DNA of 58,136 bases from a bacterium (lineage in GTDB: Bacteria; Oederibacteriota; PGYV01). The position numbers were made by a program, and so were the translations under genes. The first letter of the stretch is position 1; every line of letters begins with the position of its first letter. This document shows positions 3,147-45,960 of the stretch, piece after piece. The notes under the pieces are model-generated. The model ran no database searches and was not told where the DNA came from. It saw only the letters and a list, made by a program, of their open reading frames with translations. Where the stretch lies: assembly GCA_029565735.1 (NCBI GenBank), contig JAKQNO010000102.1, positions 1 to 58,136 of the forward strand, given 5' to 3'.

Positions 3147-3192
3147 TTTTCCCCGTCCCGATAATTTAGTTAAAAACCGCGTCCTAAAACCA

Positions 3193-3217
3193 CGCACCCT
3201 GAAGGGTGCGGCTACCA
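3193..3217 (+). repeat. REP-like palindrome, family A copy 1
   Basis: Stem CGCACCCT / AGGGTGCG around a GA loop, followed by GCTACCA. First of six family A copies in the window. Confidence 0.85.
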
Positions 3218-3237
3218 CTACAATTACACTTCAACTA

Positions 3238-3264
3238 CCGCGGGCTAAAGACCCGCGTCTACCA
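3238..3264 (+). repeat. REP-like palindrome, family B copy 1
   Basis: Stem CGCGGG / CCCGCG around loop CTAAAGA, followed by TCTACCA. Twenty bases after the family A copy; the A-B pair recurs at 3350-3421. Confidence 0.85.
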
Positions 3265-3296
3265 AGTCTAAACCAAACGCCTGGCCGCAGCCTTAC

Positions 3297-3323
3297 CGCT
3301 TATGCTTAATTGCTTATAGCTTA
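3297..3323 (+). repeat. CTTA-word repeat, family C copy 1
   Basis: Reads CCGCTTATGCTTAATTGC then TTATAGCTTA. Near-identical words occur at 41286-41324, 45410-45447 (reverse complement), 48211-48237 (reverse complement) and 48262-48344. Confidence 0.7.
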
Positions 3324-3349
3324 AATTTGCTGTCTTTTAAAGCAACTGC

Positions 3350-3421
3350 CGCACCCTAAAGGGTGCGCCTACCACTGCAATTCCACTTCAACTGCCGCGG
3401 GCTAAAGACCCGCGTCTACCA
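3350..3421 (+). repeat. REP-like palindromes, A copy 2 followed by B copy 2
   Basis: Family A at 3350-3374 (AA loop) and family B at 3395-3421, both with the CTACCA tail. Together with copies at 3193-3264 they fill most of the 295-bp gap between the acetyltransferase and radical SAM genes. Confidence 0.85.
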
Positions 3422-3441
3422 ATGCACTCAAAAAACAAATT

Positions 3442-5956: not shown

Positions 5957-6035
5957 TATGCACTTCCTTGGCTGTTTTTATTTCCTGCATAAAAATATAT
6001 AGCATAACAGGGGGGAAATCAAGGGGAAAAAACCG

Positions 6036-6215
6036 AAGGTCGGAAGGTCAGAGGGACAGAGGGACAGAGGGACAGAAGGACAGAAGGACAGAAGGACAGA
6101 AGGACAGAAGGACGGAGGGACAGAAGGTCGGAAGGTCGGAGGGAGCGACGAGCATACGGAGAAAGTTTGAAGATTTTGCAGTTCTTCCGTCCCTCTGTCC
6201 CTCTGTGCATCCGTC
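6036..6215. repeat. GGACAGA tandem word block with inverted end (family D)
   Basis: The 349-bp gap between the divergent genes holds a degenerate tandem array of 8-10 bp units (GGGACAGA, AGGACAGA, GGTCGGAA). The array is followed at 6182-6220 by its reverse complement (CCGTCCCTCTGTCCCTCTGT), so the block could fold on itself. The same words recur at 16341-16376, 45350-45385 and 45536-45580. ORFs crossing it are low-complexity and not credible genes. Confidence 0.8.
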
Positions 6216-6231
6216 CCTCACGTTCTACTCA

Positions 6232-16270: not shown

Positions 16271-16340
16271 AAAGCCTCCTGTGTGTTTTACACATTTTAC
16301 CCGCTTCATCCGGCAAAATCAAGCAGGAGGAATAAAAGCT

Positions 16341-16376
16341 GAGGGACGGATGCACGGAGGGACAGATGGACGGAAG
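16341..16376. repeat. GGACGGA word block (family D)
   Basis: GAGGGACGGATGCACGGA and following words. Almost the same string opens the block at 45350, and its reverse complement ends the block at 45580. Confidence 0.7.
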
Positions 16377-16423
16377 TAACGACCGCTATCGAAGATTCGA
16401 AATTTGAAAATTAAATAAAACCT

Positions 16424-16605
16424 ACAGGGGTTGGATGTGTTTTTTCAGCGTGTGCCGCGCAGGCAAAATACATATACGGCAGGGGCGCTTTAATGCCGCG
16501 CCGGTTGGAGCGAGCCTGCGAAGCGGAAATCCCCGGGCTTGCGCGAGTCTACGAGCGCAAGTGTTAGGGGACAGCTCGCGCTGAAAAAACACACCCAACC
16601 CCTGT
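16424..16605. repeat. 182-bp inverted-repeat element with 27-bp arms (MITE-like or structured RNA)
   Basis: Left arm 16424-16450 and right arm 16579-16605 are reverse complements at 26 of 27 positions by eye. The 128-bp interior is GC-rich and itself contains paired segments (GCCGCGC near 16455 against GCCGCGCC near 16495), plus the 66-bp element G at 16505-16570. No ORF is convincing inside. It fills much of the 444-bp gap between two leftward genes; the remainder holds family D, E and A repeats. I find no clear target duplication at the ends. Confidence 0.75.
16505..16570 (+). repeat. 66-bp element G, copy 1
   Basis: Starts TTGGAGCGAGCCTGCGAAGC and ends TTAGGGG. Contains a 7-bp stem CTTGCGC / GCGCAAG with a 10-base loop. 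The second copy, of equal length, is at 41101-41166 and about 58 of 66 bases agree. Confidence 0.8.
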
Positions 16606-16613
16606 GATGTCAG

Positions 16614-16683
16614 ACGCTTGGATGCTTAGAAACTTAGTAAAATTCCAAATCAACTGCCGCGCCCTAAAGGGACGCGCCTACCA
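16614..16683 (+). repeat. family E words followed by REP-like family A copy 3
   Basis: GACGCTTGGATGCTTAGA (family E, also at 24312-24350) is followed at 16658-16683 by an A-type palindrome with one arm changed (GCGCCCT / AGGGACGC) and the usual CTACCA tail. Confidence 0.7.
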
Positions 16684-16714
16684 CTGCGAAAACCTTAAAA
16701 AATACGGATTAAAA

Positions 16715-17104
16715 TCAGTTGTCTACCTTGTTCAGCTTTATGCGCCTTATTCCCAGCGGCACTTTCCATTCTATAATATCGTTTTCACTGTAGCCTATGA
16801 CCGCTGTTCCTATCGGCGCCAGCACCGAAACCTTTTCGCCTTCGGCGTCCGCCTCTGCGGGAAGCACCAGCTTAAAAACGGTTTTTTCCCCTGTATCTTC
16901 ATCAATCATTTCCACTGTTGAACCTATCCTTACAAGCCCTTTGCGCTGTTCCTGCCCGTTCTTTATAACCTTTGCCCTGCTTATTTCCTTTAACAGCTGG
17001 TCAAAATATTTTCTGTTGCTGCCGTTTATTCCGGCATTGCCGGACGTAAGCCTTTTTATTGCGTTAACGTCATCTTCATACACATAAATCTCTTTGGTTT
17101 CCAT
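16715..17104 (-). CDS. Rnk-like GreA/GreB-family protein
   Basis: 129 residues, close to the 136 of E. coli Rnk. The C-terminal half carries the GreA/B FKBP-like fold (VRIGSTVEMIDEDTGEKTVF, VLAPIGTAVIGYSENDIIEW). The N-terminal half is only a short helical region without the acidic-tipped coiled coil of true Gre factors, as in Rnk, which binds RNA polymerase without stimulating cleavage. A role in transcription is therefore likely, the detail unknown. Monocistronic; a strong hairpin separates it from the antiporter unit upstream. Confidence 0.85.
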   Translation of the reverse strand: METKEIYVYEDDVNAIKRLTSGNAGINGSNRKYFDQLLKEISRAKVIKNGQEQRKGLVRIGSTVEMIDEDTGEKTVFKLVLPAEADAEGEKVSVLAPIGTAVIGYSENDIIEWKVPLGIRRIKLNKVDN

Positions 17105-24311: not shown

Positions 24312-24382
24312 GATGCTTAGACGCTTGGATGCTTGGATGCTTGGAAGGTTAGATCTGGTAGACGCGGGTCTTCAGCCCGCGG
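24312..24382. repeat. family E words followed by REP-like family B copy 3
   Basis: GATGCTTGGATGCTTGGA tandem words (24312-24350) are followed at 24356-24382 by a minus-strand B palindrome (GAAG variant of the loop). Confidence 0.8.
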
Positions 24383-24448
24383 CAGTTGTTTTTTATTTTT
24401 TTCAGCGGAAATGTTTTCGCATTGGCGGTTATAACAGGTCATTTCGTC

Positions 24449-25183: not shown

Positions 25184-25333
25184 CTGCTAAACCCTCTTTT
25201 ATTTACCAACATCCTCAACCCCTAAATAAATTGTCTTCCCATAATCTGTGAGTTAAGTTTAACAAAACAACGGTGTTTGAACAAACGGAATTTTATGGGA
25301 ATTCAGGGCAAGAATGAAAAAATACTGCTAAAA

Positions 25334-25469
25334 CCGCGGGCTAAAGACCCGCGTCTACCAGAACAAAATAAAATCCAAACCAACTACAACTACCGCGGGC
25401 TGAAGACCCGCGTCTACCATAACCATAACGCAAATCTAAAAAACGCGCCCTAAAGGGACGCGGCTACCA
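25334..25469 (+). repeat. REP-like palindromes: B copy 4, B copy 5, A copy 6
   Basis: B at 25334-25360 and 25393-25419, A at 25444-25469 (arm variant GCGCCCT / AGGGACGC), all in the same orientation with tails CTACCA. They occupy the middle of the 396-bp gap between the 24449 gene and serA; outside them and the serA terminator I see nothing. Confidence 0.85.
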
Positions 25470-25525
25470 GAACAAGAAAAATCAAACATCAAAAACAAAA
25501 CATAAATACAGCAAACAAAATAAAT

Positions 25526-41100: not shown

Positions 41101-41166
41101 TTGGAGCGAGCCTGCGAAGCGGAAATCCACGGGATTACGCAAGTTTACGAGCGTGAGTATTAGGGG
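41101..41166 (+). repeat. 66-bp element G, copy 2
   Basis: Same first 28 bases and same length as copy 1 (16505-16570). The stem is changed but kept (TTACGC / GCGTGA instead of TTGCGC / GCGCAA). Here it lacks the 27-bp outer arms and is flanked on both sides by GGCCGGAAG. Confidence 0.8.
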
Positions 41167-41204
41167 AAGGGCCGGAAGTAAAAACAACCATCAAATACAA
41201 AAAC

Positions 41205-45349: not shown

Positions 45350-45580
45350 GACGAGGGACGGATGCACAGAGGGTCAGATGTTCGGAAGTAAAAACAAAAT
45401 CATAAGGACAAGCAGTTAAGCATTAGGCAGATAAGCAGAAGCGTAAGAAGAAAAACCGTAAAAATCTAATTCAACTACCGCGGGCTAAAGACCCGCGTCT
45501 ACCAGATCAAAAAATAAACCTACAAACTGCCGTTTTTTCTTCCATCCCTCCGTGCATCCGTCCCTCTGTCCCTCTGCCTT
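45350..45580. repeat. composite repeat block: D, reversed C, B copy 7, reversed D
   Basis: Fills the gap between the convergent fmt and ridA genes. GAGGGACGGATGCACAGAGG (from 45351) and the reverse-complement words at 45536-45580 (CCCTCCGTGCATCCGTCCCT) could pair. Between them are reversed family C words (45410-45447) and a B palindrome (45478-45504). Confidence 0.75.
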
Positions 45581-45960
45581 TATATCTCCGCGACCGCCTC
45601 TATTTCTATATTCGCGCCTTTTGGCAGGGCCGCCACCTGAACAGTGCTTCTTGCGGGAAGATTAACGCCGCACTTTTCTTCCATTACTTCGTTTACAAAT
45701 TTAAAATCATCAAGGTTCGTCATAAAGATATTCACCTTTACCAGCTTTTCAACGGAGCTTCCGGCAGCCTTTAAAACAGCTTCCATGTTATCAAAAATAA
45801 GCCTTGTTTCTTTGTGTATACCCTCTGTGGAAAGATGGCCGGTTTCAGGGACAATAGGCAGCTGGCCTGATAAAAAAATCAGGTTTCCGCATTTAATTGC
45901 CTGTGAATACGGCCCGACAGGTTTTGGCGCCTTATCCGTAAAAATAACCTCTTTTGCCAT
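45580..45960 (-). CDS. ridA: RidA-family enamine/imine deaminase
   Basis: 126 residues, the usual length. Hydrolyses reactive 2-aminoacrylate released by PLP enzymes. Signature features: PVGPYSQAIKCGNLIFLSGQ at the N-terminus and PARSTVQVAALPKGANIEIE with the catalytic Arg. GGGAGG precedes the ATG. Single gene between the repeat block and the BatD-like gene on the same strand. Confidence 0.93.
   Translation of the reverse strand: MAKEVIFTDKAPKPVGPYSQAIKCGNLIFLSGQLPIVPETGHLSTEGIHKETRLIFDNMEAVLKAAGSSVEKLVKVNIFMTNLDDFKFVNEVMEEKCGVNLPARSTVQVAALPKGANIEIEAVAEI

Follow-up and report, generated by a model that had tools for sequence, protein, structure and literature searches.

The 182-bp stretch at positions 16424-16605 of the window (the whole 58,136-nt stretch of DNA analyzed, contig JAKQNO010000102.1) is a rearranged, internally deleted copy of a repeat, here termed family A, which carries one copy of a second repeat, element G. 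Family A is a previously uncatalogued, genus-specific, dispersed non-coding hairpin repeat, situated between genes at about 40 copies per genome in three related uncultured bacteria. It constitutes a new family within a known kind of repeat, the ERIC/MITE/REP-like intergenic hairpin repeats, and is unusual in that its copies are locked to one strand and its arms covary.

Identification and distribution of family A

The initial annotation had described the stretch as a non-coding, internally paired element bounded by 27-bp inverted repeats, and these properties were borne out. Of the 27 positions in the arms (16424-16450 and 16579-16605), 26 pair, and the arms can be extended without gaps to 32 nt at 91%, while no ORF of at least 80 aa lies within the stretch. 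Its folding energy is -103.2 kcal/mol, as compared to -66.2 +/- 4.0 for shuffled sequences (z -9.17; reached in 0 of 200 shuffles). The 182 bp are, on the other hand, no natural unit: the unit of the family is 205 bp, and the stretch is one rearranged copy holding another repeat.

By searching the 2.47-Mb genome of the window (G000) with a 24-mer of the arm and allowing at most three mismatches, we found 63 matches, as opposed to none for the reversed pattern, which served as a test against chance occurrence. A separate search of the same genome gave about 90 partial matches. In total, 86 full-frame copies were recovered with their flanks from G000 and two other genomes of the same genus (G001 and G002), four of which, namely the window copy and those at loci L002, L003 and L005, are rearranged forms of 179-182 bp. 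Intact units span 203-206 bp, are non-coding, have the arms ACAGGGGTTGGGTGTGTTTTTTCAG and CTGAAAAAATATACCCAA.CCCTGT, and contain the near-invariant internal motifs TTTAATGC, TGCCAATGA, GATTTCAA and ACCAATTTGCGGCGCG. A covariance model built from 26 diverse copies identified 46, 49 and 41 matches in the three genomes (both strands counted). Some copies are clustered as tandem pairs and triplets (contigs C97, C18 and C44). A lack of further copies and of conserved structure would have spoken against the initial annotation; instead, there are dozens of copies per genome and their arms covary.

When 42 genomes of the phylum from outside the genus were scanned with the covariance model, a single marginal match (E 0.003) and no convincing one appeared, and a sequence search of 38 other genomes of the order and phylum gave no A matches. 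The exact arm had no match in 84,980 species genomes or viral contigs, a collection from which records near the window's own were possibly left out. Rfam returned no match at E <= 1 for either the 182-nt stretch or family A.

The flank alignment revealed that the sequence surrounding A is also repeated among copies. The 40-bp left flanks (e.g. L042, L045 and L126) fall into a few repeated classes, i.e. TTCGAAATTCGAAAATT, a hairpin AACCCG..TGTGTTGCTGCGGGTTT, and REP, so that the intergenic regions appear to be pieced together from different families of repeats. Arrays built of 8-bp units (GGGACRGA/GGGACGGA) are likewise found repeatedly in intergenic DNA, in the window at 6016-6230, 16340-16378, 45353-45391 and 45530-45586, and mostly have the polarity of A when adjoining it. 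REP-like hairpins also occur in tandem groups, with CCGCGGGCTAAAGACCCGCGTCTACCA and CGCACCCTAAAGGGTGCG variants, at 24349-24400, 25289-25498 and 3182-3422 of the window. No target-site duplication is visible in the 86 flank pairs, in agreement with the initial annotation; the flanks are themselves repeats and the copies are old.

Structure of the window locus and element G

All features of the locus are given on the plus strand. An array of 8-bp units (GAGGGACGGATGCACGGAGGGAC.., 16340-16378), of a type often adjoining A copies, is followed by a left-flank repeat (..ATCGAAGATTCGAAATTTGAAAATTAAATAAAACCT, 16388-16423) which is common to many A copies according to the alignment of the 86 flanks. 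The first 81 bp of the A element (A-left, 16424-16504), with the left arm ACAGGGGTTGGATGTGTTTTTTCAGCG at 16424-16450, are 84% identical to positions 2-82 of an intact 207-bp copy, and the covariance-model match covers 16424-16605. Nested in A lies element G (TTGGAGCGAGCC...GTTAGGGGA, 16505-16571), an independent repeat that the initial annotation had recognized as 66 bp and that is 67 bp long. The last 34 bp of the family (A-right, 16572-16605) contain the right arm CGCTGAAAAAACACACCCAACCCCTGT at 16579-16605, which also matches the A arm on the reverse strand at 94%. To the right of A follows a REP-like hairpin (16652-16683, TGGTAGGCGCGTCCCTTTAGGGCGCGGCAGTTG on the minus strand), of the same type as those flanking a RAYT gene in G000.

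The orthologous site in the sister species G002 harbors a 108-bp short A without G. In G001 (C54:10207-10264, L124), A is missing, as are the neighboring greA-like gene and the whole repeat-bearing gap corresponding to window positions 16310-17104. The window copy has one of two origins: either G entered an A that had become shorter, or two G copies within a single A recombined. One locus, L004, does carry two G copies in the same A, and their recombination would produce the arrangement seen in the window copy and at L002, L003 and L005.

Element G was recovered at 49 places, with identical or near-identical copies alone, within the 8-bp arrays or within REP hairpins; a second, free-standing copy in the window is found at 41101-41167. 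Six copies have flanks that, once joined, correspond to unoccupied sites, with zero duplication. Five of these are in REPs (...GCGG^CAGTT..) and the sixth is in another repeat, GCAGTTAAG^CATAAGCG. Free-standing copies in arrays gave the same duplication-free reading by eye. Judging from these junctions, G appears to be an independent small mobile repeat which inserts without target duplication, often in REP hairpins.

Orientation of the copies

Two or more copies are present on 21 contigs; there, 60 share the orientation of their own contig and one (G000 contig C44) is opposed, as counted by hand transcription from the covariance-model matches. Random orientation never matched this in 20,000 simulations, and an 80% gene-like bias did so with P about 1e-4. 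Gene orientation is looser, at 45:12 in the window, with about 80% of local genes pointing one way. Sites between convergent or divergent genes are informative since gene orientation cannot decide there; A keeps the contig polarity also at these, with the C44 copy as the one exception. Neighboring repeats follow the same polarity, namely REPs near A at 46:2 and 8-bp arrays beside A at 95:5.

The GC skew of the A strand is negative in 71 of 77 loci, although these 3-kb skews are partly gene-driven. With replication direction deduced from GC skew and gene strand rather than from a mapped origin, the A strand, which forms the better stem, would be the leading-strand template. A role for the complement, A', as an mRNA element in 3' UTRs was considered as well, starting from the finding that about 90% of the genes to the right lie on the minus strand. 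It was dropped as the main explanation because about 80% of local genes are on the minus strand anyway, and because the orientation holds at convergent and divergent sites.

Covariation of the terminal stem

In the 26 diverse copies, 93.6% of the cells of the 32-pair terminal stem are paired, versus 89.9% after shuffling. Double changes affect 12 pairs (3.9 shuffled) and 25 cells (5.5 shuffled), with 0 of 500 shuffles reaching either value; these counts do not represent independent events, as the copies are related. When the stem alignment was slid, covariation was far lower. Of 81 copies, 60 have a G-U pair at arm position 14 and 65 have one at position 16, as read on the A strand; the remaining copies almost always have G-C or A-U (A-C at most once). 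The rest of the stem has a G-U:A-C ratio of 40:14. The A strand is more stable than its complement in 78 of the 81 copies, which together with the G-U pairs kept on it overturned A' as the carrier of the structure. When the arms are removed, the folding of the remaining interior is at chance level (z about -0.6 to -0.7).

The terminal stem thus covaries, with homogenization of the arms as an alternative cause, since template switching between arms can mimic compensatory change (PMC8604942). The orthologous copies are of interest in this respect. About 13 of the 28 full-frame copies in G000 have an A counterpart at the corresponding site of another species, as judged by flank comparison. In the pair L143/L155, whose flanks are about 88-93% identical, the arms have changed together (CCGTGGTTTGGG/CCCAAACCCCGG versus ACATGGATTCAG/CTGAATCCATGT), and a second re-paired couple is formed by G001 C14:39200 and G002 C4:28873, where orthology is taken from similar flanks and spacing. 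The joint changes in both pairs reflect either compensatory change or template-switch homogenization. The persistence of the G-U pairs argues against the latter being frequent.

Possible origins of family A

A serious possibility, which we hold tentatively and consider to fall a little short of probable, is that A is a non-autonomous ERIC/REP-type hairpin repeat that is propagating, or was propagated in the past, through single strands in a strand-specific manner. Under the mechanism we infer, the single-stranded A hairpin would be recognized on one strand, probably at the lagging-strand template, which would give every copy the same orientation with respect to the fork. The leading candidate for the mobilizer would be an HUH enzyme (Y1/RAYT-type) acting in trans. 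The copies would then persist between genes, with the stem kept paired through selection or arm homogenization. Enzymes of the Y1/RAYT superfamily act on single strands at the lagging-strand template (PMC6006769), from which strand-locked and duplication-free insertions are expected.

Candidate enzymes are encoded in these genomes. A 154-aa protein in G000 (contig C128, L032:1399-1863, minus strand) matches the NCBIfam model for REP-associated tyrosine transposases, NF047646, with 95.1 bits (curated cut-off 80), and its gene lies between two inverted GTAG-type REPs, the same type being scattered in the window. Gene and REPs (L032:1329-1928) form a complete REPtron as described in PMC6006769. 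Both this and the 46:2 polarity of REPs near A speak for the single-strand route. Neither A nor G flanks the RAYT gene, its neighbors being REPs; in G001, a Y1 transposase gene has REPs on its flanks, one of them carrying a G. Another protein in G000 (contig C107, L031:1438-2445, plus strand; 335 aa) combines a Y1 transposase domain with a C-terminal stretch weakly resembling the C-terminal part of DnaA (25 bits, below cut-off). Such RAYT/Y1 enzymes may act on A, but several observations sit poorly with single-strand spread. The strand with the better stem is the leading-strand template, opposite to the one expected for IS200/IS605-type enzymes. A has no GTAG tag, no RAYT is found beside it, and no Y1/RAYT-type enzyme next to or inside it. 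Three orthologous gaps of G002 and the window site revealed neither an A insertion event nor a cleanly empty site, but held relics or other repeats. Furthermore, the strand lock could stem from selection after insertion, and hairpin transposition does not explain the 95:5 polarity of the arrays.

Covariation above all shuffles and slides can also be taken to mean that A is a multicopy structured ncRNA of about 205 nt, made from the A strand, in which the terminal stem and internal motifs are conserved, its copies being genes or their recent descendants. The initial annotation had named a large structured RNA as one option; compensatory stem changes and one-strand G-U pairing support this part of it, as do the greater stability of the A strand, the near-invariant motifs, and the deeply diverged copies that are common to two species and have re-paired arms. 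We nevertheless regard an ncRNA as rather unlikely, given that Rfam offers no counterpart, no promoter or terminator was established, the interior folds at chance level without the arms, template switching can mimic the compensation, and RNA from the A strand would oppose most neighboring genes as well as the fork.

The other option in the initial annotation, a MITE-like non-autonomous mobile element, agrees with the size, inverted repeats, copy number and intergenic position of A, while no transposon sharing the A ends was found. In its specific form, A would be the relic of a DDE-type MITE (e.g. IS630/Tc1-like, with TA target) which has lost its autonomous partner. A is short, non-coding and multicopy with long terminal inverted repeats and constant length, its ends often read T|ACAGGGG...CCCTGT|A, and Coxiella QMITE2 has a similar layout (TIR 23-29 bp, core 113-145 bp; PMC10969869). 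Such an origin is still improbable: only 47% of the left flanks have T and a duplication is not seen, none of the three genomes yielded a DDE_3 transposase (PF13358), G000 has no two arms spaced 0.6-5 kb from each other, and strand lock is unexpected for DDE elements.

That A is an immobile, replication-polar DNA element, serving as a site for a chromosome-maintenance protein, accords with the strand lock, the conserved motifs and the positions shared in about half of the G000 copies, but is very unlikely, as tandem pairs and triplets together with absence from other genera of the order look like repeat proliferation.

Lastly, A could represent a new class of multicopy strand-locked hairpin whose stem re-pairs rapidly at fixed sites while its internal motifs are conserved, either as a mobile structured RNA family or as a replication-polar hairpin with its own single-strand propagation. 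We doubt this.

Relation to known systems

Hairpin repeats such as ERIC, Correia and REP are common, and for most of them spread and function are still open questions. With strand lock, covarying arms and orthologous copies in three genomes, family A lends itself naturally to distinguishing single-strand transposition from RNA function and from passive DNA processes. The nested element G adds another and cleaner example, from these genomes too, of insertion into hairpins without duplication.

Integron attC sites were rejected as a match: the box order is reversed in A (GTTGGGT left and ACCCAAC right, versus RYYYAAC left and GTTRRRY right), and the copies lie far apart among housekeeping genes.

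ERIC/IRU elements are non-coding, intergenic and palindromic, occur in tens to hundreds of copies with conserved sequence, and have an uncertain mechanism of spread (PMC10969869). Compared by description rather than by sequence, A is likewise non-coding, intergenic, palindromic and multicopy, but measures 205 bp instead of 127 bp (PMC2759123), is confined to one genus of another phylum, and has a near-complete strand lock. The Correia/NEMIS, RUP and QMITE2 elements have terminal inverted repeats of about 25 bp, are 100-200 bp long, and are predicted to form one long hairpin as transcripts (PMC10969869). A resembles these MITEs in its terminal inverted repeats, size and long hairpin, and differs in its strand lock and in having no target-site duplication and no partner transposase found.

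For the IS200/IS605 single-strand route, duplication-free insertion and lagging-strand polarity are predicted (PMC6006769). Element G shows the former, and A and the REPs would fit the latter, whereas for A the paired strand is the opposite one and no such enzyme was found beside or inside it. REPs measure 20-65 nt and bear a GTAG-type tag; A lacks the tag, extends over 205 bp and has ACAGGGG ends. G-T pairing in stems has been reported also for REPs (PMC3733652), and the GTAG REP/RAYT system (TnpA_REP) is represented in G000 by the REP-flanked RAYT, whose REPs share the polarity of A.
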